Positions 23,723 to 61,076 of a DNA stretch of 64,000 nt are shown here, in pieces. The translations under genes were made by a program, and so were the position numbers. Below the pieces are notes generated by a model. That model did not search any database and had not been told where the DNA came from. It saw only the letters and a program-made list of their open reading frames with translations. The DNA is taken from positions 1-64,000 of the forward strand of contig NZ_JAHEBV010000013.1 of assembly GCF_024642085.1 (NCBI RefSeq). The letters run 5' to 3'. How positions within the stretch are numbered: position 1 is the stretch's first letter; the number at the start of each line of letters is the position of its first letter. The DNA is from Novosphingobium sp. GTDB taxonomy: Bacteria > Pseudomonadota > Alphaproteobacteria > Sphingomonadales > Sphingomonadaceae.

Positions 23723-24664
23723 TCAGACCGGTGCGGCGCCGCTGCCCCGTCCGCCGCGCAGGAAATATTCCAGGGTGCCGCGGTGCAGGACGTCATCAAT
23801 GTCGATTATGGCCGTGTTGGCATAAGTGAAGCCAGGGGCAAGGCTGCGGTAAAGCCGGTCGAAATCACGGTCGACAGTCTGGTGAAACAAATCGTCGAAG
23901 CTTTCGATGACGAAATAGGTCGGTTGCAGGTCATCGATCACATAGTCGGTGCGCATTACCCGGTCTACGTTGAGCATGATGCGATTGGGGCTTTGTGCCT
24001 CCAGGCAGAACACCGCCTCGGCCGGGCCGGACAGGATGCCCGCGCCATAAGCGCGCAAATCCGATCCTTCCAGAACGAGGCCGAACTCCACCGTGTACCA
24101 GTACAATGACCCCAGCGATTTCAGCCGGTTATAGCGCATCGCCTTCCAGCCGGCCCGGCCGTATTCCTGCATATAGTCGGCATAGGTCGGATCGGCCAGC
24201 ATCGGAACATGGCCGAAGACGTCATGGAACACGTCGGGTTCCTGGATATAATCAAAGGTTTGGCGCGTCCGGATGAAGTTGCCGGCGGGAAAACGCCGGT
24301 TGGCCAGATGCCAGAAGAACACATGATCGGGGATCAGCATCGGCACGGGCACCACGCTCCAACCGGTCAGTGCATTCAGCTGTTCGGACAACCGGGCAAA
24401 ATCCGGCACCCCGCTGCGTCCCAGCCCAAGCTTTTGCGTGCCAGCCAAGAAGGCGCTGGCCGCGCGGCCTGGCAGTATATCCATCTGCCGCGCGTACAGG
24501 TCGTTCCAGATGCCGTCCTCGTCGCTGGAATAGATCCGTTGCTGCGGTTCGATCCAATCTTCGCCGACATGGTCTGGCCGGTTGAGCGGCGCCGTGAATA
24601 CAGCGGGATCGCCTTGCGGCAATCGGGCAAAGTCGGGCTCGTCAAGGGCAGGGGCTTGCGACAT
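23723..24664 (-). CDS. phhA: Phenylalanine-4-hydroxylase
   Basis: A 313-residue iron- and pterin-dependent monooxygenase that converts phenylalanine to tyrosine. The facial triad is visible: two His in EPDVFHDVFGHVPML (about residues 140-154) and Glu in YWYTVEFGLV (about 190-199). Substrate and pterin-site residues include LIPDHVFFWHLANRRFPAGNF. It is a single catalytic domain of usual bacterial length, slightly extended at the C-terminus by a Gly-rich tail. The start at 24664 (MSQAPALDE) is chosen because the further upstream ATG adds an unrelated 26-residue leader. It is divergent from ppk2. Confidence 0.95.
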   Translation of the reverse strand: MSQAPALDEPDFARLPQGDPAVFTAPLNRPDHVGEDWIEPQQRIYSSDEDGIWNDLYARQMDILPGRAASAFLAGTQKLGLGRSGVPDFARLSEQLNALTGWSVVPVPMLIPDHVFFWHLANRRFPAGNFIRTRQTFDYIQEPDVFHDVFGHVPMLADPTYADYMQEYGRAGWKAMRYNRLKSLGSLYWYTVEFGLVLEGSDLRAYGAGILSGPAEAVFCLEAQSPNRIMLNVDRVMRTDYVIDDLQPTYFVIESFDDLFHQTVDRDFDRLYRSLAPGFTYANTAIIDIDDVLHRGTLEYFLRGGRGSGAAPV

Positions 24665-25895: not shown

Positions 25896-26549
25896 ATGAA
25901 CAGCTTGATTTCCAAAACCCGCCTTATCGCATGTGCCGCCGTTTCGGCGGTGCTCGTCGTTTCCGCCAGCCAACCTTCCGCCGTGCTGGCGCAGGGTGCC
26001 GCCACACAGGGTGACCTGGCTCAGGCAGTCGGTGCGCTGCGCGGTATTTCGACCTTGCGCGCCGATTTCGTCCAGACCGATCGCAATGGCAAACGGATGG
26101 GCGGTGTGCTGACCTTGAAGCGCCCGGGCCGGATCCGGTTCCAATATGAAAAGGGCGTCCCGATCCTGGTCGTGTCCGATGGATCGGCCCTTACTTTCGT
26201 CGACTATTCGGTGCGCCAGGTGCAACGCTGGCCGATCAAGAACAGTCCGCTGGGCGCGCTGCTTGATCCGAACCGCGACGTCATGAAGTACGGAAGGCTG
26301 GTTCCGGTCGGCAATCCGAACGTGGTCGGAATCGAAGTGCGTGACAAGGGCCATCCGGAATACGGGATCATTACCCTGATGTTCGTGCGCAAGGGATCGG
26401 CGCCAGGCGGCCTTGAACTGTCGAGCTGGGCCTCGCTCGACTCGCAGAATAACCGCACCGTGATCAACCTCAGTAATCACCGGTATGGCGCGGCGGTTCC
26501 TGACAATACGTTCAAGTTCAACGACCCGCGCAGTGCCACTCGTCGATGA
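25896..26549 (+). CDS. lolA: Outer-membrane lipoprotein carrier protein LolA family
   Basis: A 217-residue periplasmic protein. The signal peptide spans about residues 1-32 and ends AVLA-QGA. The mature domain begins GDLAQAVGALRGISTLRADFVQTDRNGKRMGGVLTLKRPG in broken form, matching the LolA opening in which the first strand and helix bind lipid. QYEKGVPILVVSDGSALTF and the later LELSSWASLDSQNNRTVINL follow the LolA fold. It carries lipoproteins across the periplasm from LolCDE to the outer membrane. The ATG at 25896 follows ACGGAG. Several lipoprotein clients are encoded nearby, but that is not specific evidence. Confidence 0.93.
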   Translation: MNSLISKTRLIACAAVSAVLVVSASQPSAVLAQGAATQGDLAQAVGALRGISTLRADFVQTDRNGKRMGGVLTLKRPGRIRFQYEKGVPILVVSDGSALTFVDYSVRQVQRWPIKNSPLGALLDPNRDVMKYGRLVPVGNPNVVGIEVRDKGHPEYGIITLMFVRKGSAPGGLELSSWASLDSQNNRTVINLSNHRYGAAVPDNTFKFNDPRSATRR

Positions 26550-26583
26550 GGGCGAACGGCCCATCGTGGGCCGTGTGCTGGCT

Positions 26584-26599
26584 GCGACAAACTGCGACA
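26584..26599 (+). promoter_or_regulatory. GCGACA direct-repeat box before the candidate small RNA
   Basis: CTGCGACAAA occurs twice in perfect tandem, placing GCGACA at 26584-26589 and 26594-26599 with a ten-base period. Ten-base direct repeats are the normal layout of OmpR-family response-regulator sites. Seventeen bases after the second copy comes CATGGG (26617-26622), which could be a poor -10. The same box, with a much better -10, precedes the EF-hand/two-component operon at 61 kb. Confidence 0.55.
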
Positions 26600-26627
26600 A
26601 ATCTGGCGCGATTGTTCATGGGCCAGC

Positions 26628-26779
26628 AAGCCAAATCGGCCTAGAACCGTGAGTGACGGCGCGACCTGAGGCGGGTTTCCCCCCTGTTGCCCGCACCTCC
26701 AGTGAGGGCGCACCGTCAAAGCGTGACGAACGCACAAAGGAACCCTCGGTCCAATGCCCCCGGACCGAGGGTTTTCTTT
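26628..26779 (+). ncRNA. Candidate structured small RNA between lolA and xth
   Basis: About 150 bases with no ORF but strong structure. Hairpin 1 (26654-26718) pairs TGACGG with CCGTCA, then GCG/CGC, CCT/AGG, GAG/CTC and GCGGG/CCCGC, exposing a 14-base loop with six consecutive C. Hairpin 2 (26721-26733) is GCGT-GACGA-ACGC. Hairpin 3 is a 12-base perfect intrinsic terminator. The C-rich loop resembles the anti-Shine-Dalgarno loops of many alphaproteobacterial sRNAs. I do not recognise the family. The 5' end is inferred from the repeat box upstream. It could alternatively be an attenuator in an xth leader. Confidence 0.55.
26741..26779 (+). terminator. Strong intrinsic terminator upstream of xth
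   Basis: Perfect 12-base stem AACCCTCGGTCC / GGACCGAGGGTT with a nine-base loop, running into TTTTCTTT. It lies 66 bases before the xth start and about 190 bases after lolA, so it ends either the candidate RNA or lolA readthrough. Confidence 0.93.
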
Positions 26780-26844: not shown

Positions 26845-27636
26845 ATGGTTTCTCTAGCTACCTGGAACATCAATTCTGTCCGTCTGCGCGCCAATCAGGT
26901 GGCGCGATTTCTGATCCAGGAGCAGCCCGATGTGCTGTGCTTGCAAGAAATCAAGACCGAGGAAAAGCACTTCCCCCATGAGGTGTTCGAGGACCTGGGA
27001 TATACCCACCGCGCTGTCCACGGGCAAAAAGGCTATCACGGGGTGGCGACAGTAAGCCGCATTCCCTTTCGCGAGCTGGATCGCCATGACTGGCAAGCCA
27101 ATGGCGAGGCGCGGCATGTCGGCGTGGAGCTGCTGGGAGCCGGGCAGGGTATGGTAATTGAAAACGTCTACATCCCAGCTGGCGGGGATGTGCCGGACCG
27201 TGAGCAGAACGTGAAGTTCGGCCAGAAGCTGGACTTCCTCGAACGCATGGCCTTCTGGGCCGACAAACTGGACTGCCCGACCGTGATCACCGGCGATTTC
27301 AACATCGCCCCGCTGGATTGCGACGTCTATGATCACAAGGCGCTGCTGAAGGTTGTCAGCCACACCCCGATAGAGATCGAAGCACTCGAACGCTTTCGCA
27401 CCGCGCACGGCTTTGCCGATCTGGGCCGCAAGCACATTCCTGCTCCGGAACGGAACTATTCGTGGTGGTCGTACCGCACCTACTGGCAGGACAAGGATCG
27501 CGGACGGCGGCTCGATCACATGTGGGCCTCGCCCGATCTGGCCGCACAATCGCGCAGTCACCGGCTGGTCGAAGAAACCCGTAAATGGGAACAGCCGAGC
27601 GATCACATTCCGTTGGTGACGGAGTTTGATCTGTGA
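26845..27636 (+). CDS. xth: Exodeoxyribonuclease III
   Basis: A 263-residue Mg-dependent AP endonuclease and 3'-5' exonuclease for base-excision repair. Family blocks are all present: MVSLATWNINSVRLR with the Asn ligand, LCLQEIKTEE with the metal-binding Glu, GDFNIAPLDCDVYDHK with catalytic Asp and Asn, RRLDHMWAS, and the C-terminal SDHIPLV with the catalytic Asp-His. The length is typical. Its stop overlaps the GTG start of ribA as GTGA, so the two genes are translationally coupled. Confidence 0.97.
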   Translation: MVSLATWNINSVRLRANQVARFLIQEQPDVLCLQEIKTEEKHFPHEVFEDLGYTHRAVHGQKGYHGVATVSRIPFRELDRHDWQANGEARHVGVELLGAGQGMVIENVYIPAGGDVPDREQNVKFGQKLDFLERMAFWADKLDCPTVITGDFNIAPLDCDVYDHKALLKVVSHTPIEIEALERFRTAHGFADLGRKHIPAPERNYSWWSYRTYWQDKDRGRRLDHMWASPDLAAQSRSHRLVEETRKWEQPSDHIPLVTEFDL

Positions 27637-32085: not shown

Positions 32086-32151
32086 AAGTTCTTGAAACAC
32101 GCCGGTTTCGTTCCCATTATAAGATCCGCGGGACCGGGCCCCTCTGGCGCG

Positions 32152-32220
32152 GCATTTGCCCAATTGGGAAATGCTTGCGTGATGTCGGACCGCATCGGAT
32201 GTTGCCGATGCCGTGGTCCG
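32152..32220. other. Two consecutive hairpins in the SPFH-ydcH gap
   Basis: In the 276-base gap between the SPFH promoter and ydcH, GCATTT-g-CCC-AATT-GGG-AAATGC (32152-32174) forms one near-perfect hairpin. Eleven bases on, CGGACC-GCATCGG pairs with CCGATGC-CGT-GGTCCG (32186-32220). Neither is followed by a T-run. No ORF is seen. They may be part of a ydcH leader or a small RNA; the first resembles a protein-binding palindrome. Confidence 0.4.
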
Positions 32221-58129: not shown

Positions 58130-59581
58130 TCAGTTCAGCGGCAGCCAGATGGTCGCGACAAGGCCGATGACGTCACCGTTCTTGTCGCGGCGATTGCCAA
58201 GGTCGAGCCTGCCGCCGTGCTGTTCGGCGATTGCGCGGGCCAAAGCAAGACCAAGGCCCGCTCCGCCCGTCGCCGAATTGCGCGACGGGTCGCCGCGGCG
58301 GAACGGTTCCTGCATTGCGGCAATATCCGGTTCCGCGATCCCGGGGCCGTCGTCCGCGATCACAATTGACACCCCGCCACCGGCTCGCGCTACGGAAATC
58401 CTGGCCGCCTTGCCGTAACGCAGCCCATTTGAAACCAGGTTGCGCACTGCGCGGCGCAGCCATGTCGGGCGCAGCGGCACGACGATGCGATCGCCTTGGG
58501 CCAACAGGACGGGTTCACCCAGATCCTCGAACTCCTCGGCAACCTGCGCAACCAGGGCGGTCAAATCGGTCGGTTCGCGCGGGTCGCTCGGCCGACCGAC
58601 GCGGGCCAGTGACAGAATGTCATCAAGCGTGCGGACGATATCCTCGATCGTGGCGGCCATGCGTGCGCGTTCGGCATCGTCCTCTACGCTTTCGATACGC
58701 ACGCGCAGCGCCGCCAGCGGCGTTTTCAGGTCGTGACCAATAGCTCCGAGCATCACGTCTTTTTCGTCAAGCAGCGCGGCGATGCTGCTTTCCATCGCGT
58801 TATGCGCCACGATCAGGCGGCGCAGGTCGTCGGGACCCTGCGGCGCAAGCGGACCATCTGCGTCACGCGTCCGCGCAAAGTGCTCAACCCGAATGGTCAA
58901 TTCCTGGAGCGGTTTGGTCAATCGTCCCAGAATAAGCGCGATGACGCCAACCAGCAGGCCATAAAGCAGCAGGGTCTGCCCAAGCAGGGTCAGGCCTGGG
59001 CGAAACCCTGCGCGCGGAACCATAACCCGGCTGACAAGCCATGGTGATTGCGCATCCAGACGTATCGCGGCGAGCATCACTGCTTGCGGGCGAGGCAGGC
59101 GGCGCGCACCTTTCAGGGCGTCGCGCTGATCTAGGCGGCGCTGGGCCGCTACATCGTCACCAATTTTGCGTTGCAGGACGATCGCTTCAAGCGGCTTTAC
59201 CCCTTGGTCGAGCAGGACGCGCCGCAGTTCTGCTTCGCCTTCGCTGTCGCGCTGGTCAGTCGGCAGCAAGGGCAGCGCATCCACAATCTGCAGGCGCATT
59301 CCGCGGGGCCGGGATCGCGTAATCGGTGAACCTTCCGGGATCAGCGCAACGTCACCGCGCGCCACCGGTAGCAGACGCATTGCGGCAGTGTGGACCAGCG
59401 CTGCATTGCGGCGGTCGTTCTGCGCTGAATAAAGCAAGGTCGCGCTGATCGCCTGGGCCAGAAGCAAGGCCAGCGCCACCGCCATCAGCAGCTGCCCCTG
59501 CAGGCTGCGGGGCCATAGCCGGTGGAGCAGATTGGCGGCCAAGCGCGACTTAGCCTTGCGGTGCGGAGACGCGCCGGACAT
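58130..59581 (-). CDS. Sensor histidine kinase (EnvZ-like)
   Basis: A 483-residue membrane sensor. The first membrane helix is about residues 33-54 (GQLLMAVALALLLAQAISATLL) and the second about 190-212 (LTLLGQTLLLYGLLVGVIALIL), enclosing a periplasmic domain of about 135 residues. HAMP follows, then the phosphoacceptor His in MLGAIGHDLKTPLAALRVR (near 281), N-box LRRAVRNLVSNGLRYG, G1 DDGPGI and G2 GGAGLGLALARAIAE. The start at 59581 overlaps the response-regulator gene by 32 bases; longer starts run further into it. Convergent with the M1 gene, three bases apart. Confidence 0.94.
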   Translation of the reverse strand: MSGASPHRKAKSRLAANLLHRLWPRSLQGQLLMAVALALLLAQAISATLLYSAQNDRRNAALVHTAAMRLLPVARGDVALIPEGSPITRSRPRGMRLQIVDALPLLPTDQRDSEGEAELRRVLLDQGVKPLEAIVLQRKIGDDVAAQRRLDQRDALKGARRLPRPQAVMLAAIRLDAQSPWLVSRVMVPRAGFRPGLTLLGQTLLLYGLLVGVIALILGRLTKPLQELTIRVEHFARTRDADGPLAPQGPDDLRRLIVAHNAMESSIAALLDEKDVMLGAIGHDLKTPLAALRVRIESVEDDAERARMAATIEDIVRTLDDILSLARVGRPSDPREPTDLTALVAQVAEEFEDLGEPVLLAQGDRIVVPLRPTWLRRAVRNLVSNGLRYGKAARISVARAGGGVSIVIADDGPGIAEPDIAAMQEPFRRGDPSRNSATGGAGLGLALARAIAEQHGGRLDLGNRRDKNGDVIGLVATIWLPLN

Positions 59582-60284
59582 CGGCAGCCAGCATGTAGCC
59601 GCCGCCCCAGACGGTCTGGATAAGGGTGGGGTTTCGGTTGTCCGTTTCGATCTTGCGGCGCAGACGGCTGACCTGATTGTCGACCGCGCGGTCGAACAGG
59701 TGAGCCTCGCGGCCCTGAACCATGTCGAGCAGGCGATCCCGGTCAAGCACCTGACGGGGGTGTTCGACAAAAGCCATAAGGAGGCGGAACTCAACCGACG
59801 AGATAGGGACCAGTGCGCCATCGGGCGCTGTCAGCCGGCGTTTGAGCGGGTCGAGCATCCAGCCTTCGAAGGTAAAGACCTCATCGTTGGCCGCGGCGCC
59901 CCCGCCCTTCGCTGCGCGGCGCAGGACCGAGCGGATCCGCGCCACCAATTCGCGCGGCTCAAACGGTTTGACGATGTAATCGTCCGCACCGATCTCCAGC
60001 CCGATGATCCGGTCGGTCGATTCGCCCTTGGCAGTCAGAAGGATTGTAGGGATCGCGCGGGTTTCCGACAGATGCCGGCATAACGAAAGCCCGTCCTCGC
60101 CAGGCATCATGATGTCGAGAAGGACAATGTCAGGGCTTTCACTGCGCAGGACGCTTCGCGCCTCGGCAGCACTGGCGGCTTCGGTAACGCCAAAACCCTG
60201 GCGCGCCAGATAGGCGGCCAGGGGCTGGCGCAGGGCCTCCTCGTCATCGACGAGGAGGATGCTTGGGCTTGTACTGTCGTCCAT
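59550..60284 (-). CDS. OmpR-family response regulator
   Basis: A 244-residue regulator. The receiver domain holds the acidic pair DDEE (residues 13-16), phosphoacceptor Asp57 in VLLDIMMPG, TILLTAKGES (Thr) and the Lys of YIVKPFEPREL. The C-terminal winged helix (about residues 140-238) has VEFRLLMAFVEHPRQVLDRDRLLD and FDRAVDNQVSRLRRKIE, the OmpR recognition-helix signature. It is coded 22 bases after the EF-hand gene and overlaps the kinase start by 32 bases. It may bind the GCGACA direct repeats in the promoter of its own operon. Confidence 0.96.
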   Translation of the reverse strand: MDDSTSPSILLVDDEEALRQPLAAYLARQGFGVTEAASAAEARSVLRSESPDIVLLDIMMPGEDGLSLCRHLSETRAIPTILLTAKGESTDRIIGLEIGADDYIVKPFEPRELVARIRSVLRRAAKGGGAAANDEVFTFEGWMLDPLKRRLTAPDGALVPISSVEFRLLMAFVEHPRQVLDRDRLLDMVQGREAHLFDRAVDNQVSRLRRKIETDNRNPTLIQTVWGGGYMLAADVRRVSAPQG

Positions 60285-60306
60285 CAGTTTCCCAGGGACC
60301 GCAGGC

Positions 60307-60918
60307 TCAGTTTGCGGCCGGAGCAGCGGCGCGCTTGGCTTTCCAGGTTTCGCGCATTTTCATGAAGGACGCCTTGCGCTCGTCCGGCGTGACCGAGCCG
60401 TCCTTGTTGGCATCCATCATGTCGAAATGCTTGAGTGCTGCGGCTGTGGCTTCGGATTTGCTGACAGCGCCATCGTTGTTGGTGTCGGCCATCTTCATCA
60501 TGCCGCCCGCCATGCCGTGACGGCCGCCCCGCTTGCCCATCTTGCGGTTTTCGCCGGCCATGCCCTTCATGCCGCCTTCCCCGCGCATGCCTTCATGACC
60601 GGCATGTTCGCCGCCCATGCCCATGCGTTGGTGACCTGCTGCAAACTCTTCACGGGATAGCGAACCGTTCCGGTCCGTATCCATCTGGTCAAAGCGCTGG
60701 GCCATTTTGGCGGCCCGATCCGCTTGGTCGATCTTGCCATCATGGTTGGCGTCATGCTCGTCGAACATGGCTTCAGCCTTGGTCTGGGCCTGGGCGCGGG
60801 TCATGGTAGTCTGCGCTTGGGCACCGCCCCAGCCGCTGCGTTCCTGTGCTGCGTGGGCGATTCCGCCTACGGCCAGTGTCATTGCGGCGATCGAAAGGCC
60901 TTTTGTAATCGTCTTCAT
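60307..60918 (-). CDS. Secreted EF-hand calcium-binding protein
   Basis: A 203-residue protein with a signal peptide (about residues 1-23). Four EF-hand loops are visible: DANHDGKIDQAD, DTDRNGSLSREE, DTNNDGAVSKSE and DANKDGSVTPDE. Between the second and third lies a Met/Gly/His-rich linker (MGMGGEHAGHEGMRGEGGMKG, MGKRGGRHGMAGGMM) which might bind other metals. It should be a periplasmic Ca2+ buffer or sensor. It is the first gene of an operon with a response regulator and a kinase, so a Ca2+- or metal-related envelope signal for that kinase is a plausible inference. Confidence 0.92.
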   Translation of the reverse strand: MKTITKGLSIAAMTLAVGGIAHAAQERSGWGGAQAQTTMTRAQAQTKAEAMFDEHDANHDGKIDQADRAAKMAQRFDQMDTDRNGSLSREEFAAGHQRMGMGGEHAGHEGMRGEGGMKGMAGENRKMGKRGGRHGMAGGMMKMADTNNDGAVSKSEATAAALKHFDMMDANKDGSVTPDERKASFMKMRETWKAKRAAAPAAN

Positions 60919-61018
60919 CGCTTGGTCCTCCATCGGGAAACAGGTGAAGCCGCGGGATCCTCATCGGGAGAGAGGGAAAGAGCCCCGCGACTTCCTGATG
61001 TCGGAAGTACGGGACCAT

Positions 61019-61076
61019 TGTCGCGCGATTATGCCATTTTGATCCATAAGTGTCGCCAATTGTCGCAGCGTGACGC
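61019..61076 (-). promoter_or_regulatory. Promoter of the EF-hand/two-component operon with response-regulator repeats
   Basis: On the minus strand the order is GCGTCA-CGCT-GCGACA-ATTG-GCGACA (61051-61076), a 17-base spacer, then CATAAT (61028-61033) as -10. The repeats have a ten-base period, and the last copy occupies exactly the -35 position, the layout expected for a promoter activated by an OmpR-family regulator. A further GCGACA (61019-61024) lies at about the start point. The leader before the EF-hand ATG is about 100 bases. Confidence 0.65.

Follow-up and report, generated by a model that had tools for sequence, protein, structure and literature searches.

According to the accessible text of the reports cited here, the small RNA RusT (CCNA_R0199) of Caulobacter crescentus has its gene between lolA and xth. 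It is 118 nt long and has four stem-loops. Stem-loop 2 is the proposed seed, and the Hfq site lies at nt 73-84 (PMC11005374). NtrX binds and represses RusT, and iron starvation and zinc induce it. Together with Hfq, RusT represses mainly outer-membrane transporters; the repressed targets include TonB-dependent receptors, ompW and glnBA (PMC11005374).

C-rich loops that repress mRNAs with G-rich motifs are described for sX13 and RepG. sX13 of Xanthomonas has three stem-loops with C-rich apical loops, as has the RNA described below, and represses mRNAs that carry a G-rich motif close to the start. It differs in its lineage, in its loops of four or five C and in being Hfq-independent (PMC3771888). 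RepG of Helicobacter pylori base-pairs through its C/U-rich terminator loop with a G-run of the target leader, but this target is a phase-variable G-repeat and RepG sits between other genes (PMC8295292). Another small RNA of C. crescentus, ChvR, is governed by an envelope-linked two-component system. However, ChvR lies at another locus, is controlled by ChvI, has one target, is Hfq-independent and reportedly occurs in C. crescentus only (PMC6237742).

The window, i.e., the whole stretch of 64,000 nucleotides from a Novosphingobium sp. that was analysed, holds the following features around its own lolA-xth gap:

25896..26549, +: lolA (outer-membrane lipoprotein carrier), the upstream neighbour; Pfam PF03548 with E 2e-20, NCBIfam lolA under its cut-off
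26582..26601, +: perfect tandem of CTGCGACAAA (copies 26582-26591 and 26592-26601), read from the sequence
26614..26631, +: conserved promoter element GTTCAT (26614-26619) and GCAAGC (26626-26631), seen in alignments; promoter function predicted
26641..26647, +: -10-like CTAGAAC, with CCTANA conserved; predicted start near 26654
26654..26779, +: predicted small RNA of about 126 nt; covariance model match at 26650-26778 with 142.2 bits, its own sequence being among the 17 that built the model
26654..26718, +: hairpin 1, with a covarying stem and a fixed apical loop TTTCCCCCCTGTTG (26676-26689), whose C6 (26679-26684) is the predicted seed
26721..26733, +: hairpin 2, GCGTGACGAACGC, with invariant stem and loop, exact in 77 of 80 sequences
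26740..26779, +: intrinsic terminator with covarying stem, TGCCCCC loop and T-run; [TC]GCCCCCGG in 79 of 80 sequences
26845..27636, +: xth (exodeoxyribonuclease III), the downstream neighbour; TIGR00633 with 169 bits, above cut-off

The order lolA-RNA-xth is the same as for RusT (PMC11005374), and the two RNAs are similar in length (118 nt versus about 126 nt). Both have a conserved internal stem-loop as the proposed seed. Both also have a small stem-loop just before the terminator, which is the Hfq site at nt 73-84 in RusT and corresponds to hairpin 2 at nt 68-80 here, if the RNA starts at 26654. Two-component control would be a further common trait, although it is exerted by NtrX on RusT and is predicted for an OmpR-type regulator here. 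RusT has four stem-loops, and the accessible text mentions no tandem GCGACA for it, whereas the RNA here has three hairpins and the tandem. Judged by position, length, element order and two-component control, the RNA is rather likely to be the counterpart of RusT by descent, and probably one with a different regulator box. Comparing the two RNAs can directly test whether a small RNA is able to keep its locus while the controlling two-component system is exchanged.

Tandem GCGACA box and the two-component operon

The initial annotation had described a perfect CTGCGACAAA tandem upstream of the RNA, with the second GCGACA 17 bases before a CAT, and had proposed that a two-component operon has the same box. 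All three observations hold. In the RNA promoter, the half-sites GCGACA lie at 26584-26589 and 26594-26599 with a 10-bp period, and the CAT follows at 26617. The shared motif GCGACANNNNGCGACA occurs twice in the window, at 26584 (+) and 61051-61066 (-), where 0.07 copies are expected; none of 100 shuffles contained two copies. In the 2.9-Mb genome, GCGACAN4GCGACA has three exact sites, two of which are the RNA promoter and the promoter of the following operon:

61010..61066, -: operon promoter with GCGACA, GCGACA, GGCATA and GCGACA at offsets 0, 10, 31 and 42, defined by alignment and matrix
60307..60915, -: EF-hand protein, first gene of the operon, with a start that looks like a signal peptide by eye; PF13202 with E 4.9e-20
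59550..60284, -: OmpR-type response regulator; PF00072 and PF00486, OmpR equivalog with 244 bits against a cut-off of 331
58130..59821, -: EnvZ-like histidine kinase, from profile searches

The EF-hand, OmpR-type and EnvZ-type proteins were typed by profile, and calling the system an envelope system is an assumption.

The third exact site lies on contig C15 (78831-78846, -). It is flanked by purA and by a divergent gene that was named by eye as secreted esterase-like. The sequence GCGACAATCCGCGACA at this site recurs in other genomes of the genus.

The box is conserved in front of the operon. Among the 59 top-ranked operon loci, the tandem is exact in 31 and has at most one mismatch in 40 (4 of 236 shuffles). 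If the third GCGACA is included, at most 2 of 18 positions are mismatched in 53 of the 59 loci and in none of 236 shuffles. These promoters usually carry CTAGA about 9 bases past the array; that of the window is without it. We also observed that the in-phase half-sites before the operon (window 58130-61066, -) are kept across genera. From its sequence, the operon promoter looks like an autoregulated one.

The RNA promoter has GCGACA, GCGACA, TTCATG and GCAAGC at the offsets of the operon promoter, with CTAGAA one base further. GTTCAT and GCAAGC occupy the positions of GGCATA and GCGACA in the operon promoter. Hence, the upstream tandem matches the operon array well and the downstream elements match it weakly. 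Of 63 other RNA loci in the genus, 35 have the exact tandem and 53 have it with at most one mismatch, a level reached by 0 of 315 shuffles. For a matrix, we took 55 operon promoters from other genomes and left out three operon loci (L159, L186, L192) and that of the window. Within the window, this matrix ranks the operon promoter first (50.0), the RNA promoter second (-7.6) and a site at 24616 third (-12.7). This third score is near that of the RNA promoter, which was reached by 1 of 60 random windows. The GGCAT columns of the matrix are partly circular because GGCAT was used to choose the sites.

Outside the genus, the RNA box is reduced to a single half-site, sometimes preceded by GTTGTA, or to less or nothing; in many other genera the tandem is absent or only a half-site is present. 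The downstream block GTTCAT...AGNAAGC (GCAAGC)...CCTA is more widely conserved than the tandem box.

In six Sphingomonas loci (L257, L270, L271, L273, L274, L275), the RNA promoter is without the upstream tandem. All six have GCGACAGG between ATTCAT and the -10 element.

A match to the regulator was found in 76 of 79 same-genus genomes and in all 60 of those of good quality. At 1e-60, 68 of 99 family genomes have a match, the last few with 45-51% identity, which are probably paralogs. In the 26 genomes placed in both searches with a regulator identity of at least 66%, RNA and regulator lie within 35 kb of each other in 21, and within 13 kb in 18. Nine RNA-bearing genomes (G136, G138, G198, G214, G230, G249, G273, G309, G360) have no regulator match at 1e-60 when the top candidates per genome are scored. 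Two genomes of the genus (G004, G125) keep a near-exact operon box alongside a decayed RNA box, and five genomes (G004, G005, G024, G047, G056) have the regulator and the exact tandem nowhere.

The claim of a regulator shared by RNA and operon is therefore only partly sustained. Within Novosphingobium, it is supported by the box in 53 of 63 loci, the conserved operon array and the second rank in the matrix search; outside the genus, the box fades. Because this evidence is mixed, we consider regulation of the RNA by the EF-hand/OmpR-type system somewhat likely in Novosphingobium, as far as promoter sequences can tell, and unproven elsewhere.

Alternatively, the RNA could be controlled by NtrX as RusT is, and the GCGACA tandem would then be a minor addition or one specific to the lineage. 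The location of the NtrX-repressed RusT between lolA and xth (PMC11005374) agrees with this, as does the GTTCAT...GCAAGC...CCTA block, which outreaches the tandem. However, the tandem is well kept in the genus, and the putative NtrX pattern GCAN9TGC (PMC7240162; the pattern itself is unproven) is not enriched, with 1 of 64 same-genus promoters versus 38 of 1280 shuffles. We judge NtrX control to be the less likely reading and keep the OmpR-type regulator as the preferred candidate.

Other promoter classes were also considered. Sigma-54 and EcfG promoters, compared by eye with their usual motifs, do not fit. The motifs published for ChvI in the accessible text, TTGC-N3-GCAA and N-GCC-N8-GCC (PMC9731502), do not match the box.

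Conservation and structure of the RNA

Sphingomonadaceae is used here in the wide sense, with Qipengyuania and Erythrobacter included. By blastn, 65 of 71 same-genus (Novosphingobium) genomes contain the RNA region, with misses in G012, G013, G039, G041, G044 and G051, as against 0 of 47 others. The covariance model R2 matches 210 of 213 Sphingomonadaceae genomes, missing G149, G227 and G357, and 1 of 83 genomes from the rest of the order (G094, E 6e-4). For these totals, 65 unlisted matchless genomes, which come next in the order of kinship, are taken as outside the family. In the class-wide sample of 240 genomes, R2 matches three, all of them Sphingomonadaceae, and none outside the family. 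In the order-level and class-wide runs, the filters were stricter, at the cost of weak matches.

The RNA is almost always single-copy in the family, with one R2 match per matching genome except for two in G275. If it is a small RNA, it would be a core regulator of Sphingomonadaceae, to which many environmental and biotechnology strains belong. The RNA is missing from Rfam: in Rfam 15, no family exceeds the gathering threshold for the predicted RNA, and a permissive threshold gives only two chance-level matches, snoZ178 and STnc450 (E 2.6 each). Our literature search, which did not extend to supplements, found no report of the RNA in Sphingomonadaceae. Likewise, the word lolA is absent from the accessible text of two Zymomonas small RNA papers, supplements excluded (PMC6970203, PMC7064620). 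The family is thus new relative to Rfam, and we did not find it described before.

In the best 80 of 275 lolA relatives, the RNA lies beside lolA on the same strand in all 80 loci and starts at a distance of up to about 400 bases from where the lolA match ends; in one of them (L260), it overlaps this match. These 80 loci span Novosphingobium, Qipengyuania, Erythrobacter, Pelagerythrobacter, Blastomonas and Sphingomonas. The overlapping copy, which is also L029 of genome G037, has lolA-coding-like sequence upstream of the C-run, either through a real truncation or through an assembly error. As L029, it was left out of the same-genus alignment and the promoter-box count; as L260, it stayed in the 80-locus alignment.

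A long hairpin with a C6 loop, a short hairpin and a terminator had been proposed from the single sequence, and each is found in its place. The loop of the long hairpin is UUUCCCCCCUGUUG, and the short invariant hairpin is GCGUGACGAACGC. The region folds better than its shuffles (z -3.1; 2 of 200 shuffles were as good). Owing to misalignment, the outer stem was missing from a first RNAalifold consensus on a MAFFT alignment and from model R1 built on it. A subset of 17 sequences was picked for its aligned outer stem and gave the structure of model R2. In this subset, 97.1% of the cells pair, with 50 compensatory cells versus 17 in shuffles. An earlier alignment of R2 matches, which contained 11 weak matches on the other strand, was left out.

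The covariation check across relatives that the initial annotation had suggested was run on the 80 loci, which were chosen by lolA and not by the RNA, many from genomes already used. In the 79 distinct sequences, 94.0% of the cells are paired and 27 of 37 pairs show two-sided change. There are 400 compensatory cells versus 111 when shuffled, none of 500 shuffles reaches this number, and slid controls have at most 63. These counts lean towards structure because the alignment was fitted to R2. On hairpin 2, covariation is uninformative because it hardly varies. The loop of hairpin 1, CCCCCTGTT, is exact in 79 of 80 sequences, i.e., it presents a conserved unpaired C-run. When the 65 same-genus sequences were folded singly, 60 of them left 8 or more of the 10 loop bases unpaired. 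Drifting stems with fixed loops are the pattern expected of an RNA that would act by base-pairing.

Taken together, conservation, covariation and synteny strongly support the proposal that the element is a small RNA gene, and we are highly confident that it represents a real RNA family. Its proposed length of about 150 bases needs correction. The RNA should be nearer to 126 than to 150 nt because its start is placed at about 26654.

The element could instead be the 3' end of the lolA mRNA, i.e., a stable terminator region, perhaps with a processed 3'-UTR-derived RNA, which needs no promoter of its own. Its position beside lolA on the same strand in all of the best 80 of 275 loci would follow from this. 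However, a conserved promoter block separates lolA from the RNA, the stem-loop begins right after the -10-like element, and a bare terminator has no need of the fixed-loop hairpin 1 or of hairpin 2. An RNA without its own promoter is thus improbable. Even more doubtful is a cis-acting leader that attenuates xth. The RNA precedes xth in the window, but its terminator ends 65 bases upstream of the xth ATG. Moreover, among 88 xth loci of the class, only 14 have lolA in the stretch that was fetched, whereas the RNA is beside lolA in 80 of 80 loci (best 80 of 275). A small protein gene is highly improbable: mechanical ORFs do overlap the region, contrary to the claim that it contains none, but conserved coding is absent, since the distances from one invariant block to the next fall into all three residues of 3 in a set of 64 sequences, the longest closed ORF within the RNA varies from 0 to 24 aa, and the stems show compensatory changes.

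Predicted action and candidate targets

In our preferred explanation, to which we incline with reservation on the sequence evidence, the family-wide element at 26654-26779 would be a trans-acting small RNA that the EF-hand/OmpR-type system switches via the tandem GCGACA and that represses mRNAs by pairing of its C-loops with G-rich ribosome-binding sites. The phosphorylated regulator would bind the boxes of the RNA promoter as it would those of its own operon. RNA polymerase would start near 26654, and the 3' end would form at the terminator. By analogy with RusT, Hfq may hold the RNA around hairpin 2 and the U-run. The loops CCCCCCUGUU and UGCCCCC would then cover the G-runs of Shine-Dalgarno sequences and lower translation. 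The P-II gene glnB/glnK, with AACAGGGGG just before its ATG, is a candidate target.

From the fixed C-loop follows a target rule that can be tested. The complement of the loop, AACAGGGGG, has 16 sites in the genome, one of which is the other strand of the RNA locus itself, compared with 9 for the reversed control. Three of the 16 lie directly upstream of a start, namely those of the P-II gene (glnB/glnK), a secreted protein and a glycosyltransferase-like protein. The P-II gene is preceded by a putative sigma-54-like promoter. AGGGG stands before its start in 29 of 30 same-genus loci read, out of 56 genomes with a match. For the glycosyltransferase, the G-run site is absent from all 7 relatives with a readable start, of 13. 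Support for G-run targets is weak, and G-runs are ribosome-binding sites anyway. Action of the RNA on G-run ribosome-binding sites is, in our estimate, evenly balanced between true and false. With glnBA among the confirmed RusT-regulated fusions in the accessible text (PMC11005374), the analogy to the P-II candidate is suggestive and no more.

A wider evolutionary reading is speculative, and we consider it unlikely to hold in full. The lolA-xth gap could be an ancient alphaproteobacterial small RNA locus, in which the effector was kept and the signal rewired, with NtrX in Caulobacter and the EF-hand/OmpR-type system in Novosphingobium. The RNA would then be a general C-loop brake on mRNAs whose ribosome-binding sites are pure G-runs, and an envelope protein that binds calcium or metal would thereby be coupled to the control of the outer membrane and of nitrogen (P-II). 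In other families, eight loci (L347, L348 with two copies, L356, L357, L358, L359, L362, L405) have C-rich stretches and terminator-like stems near lolA or xth and fit this reading; they were picked by eye and with a loose pattern, with no background count, and four of them were folded. They come from 87 other-family xth loci of the class (L341-L427), few of which keep lolA in the fetched stretch. The motifs CGTGACGAACG and CCCCCTGTTG of the window RNA were not found in these loci. Five more loci (L343, L345, L346, L352, L372) matched the loose pattern and were rejected by eye as coding or plain terminators.

Two side observations concern other RNA elements. Upstream of xth in other families, CCTCCCTGTTGG is followed by terminator-like stems in L348 (at about 1201 and about 1354, -) and in L358 (at 331, +). 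This motif shares CCCTGTTG with the window RNA, and the elements resemble anti-Shine-Dalgarno small RNAs. In the window itself, a terC RNA (RF03067) lies at 32126-32197 (+) with 53.7 bits, which is over the gathering score.
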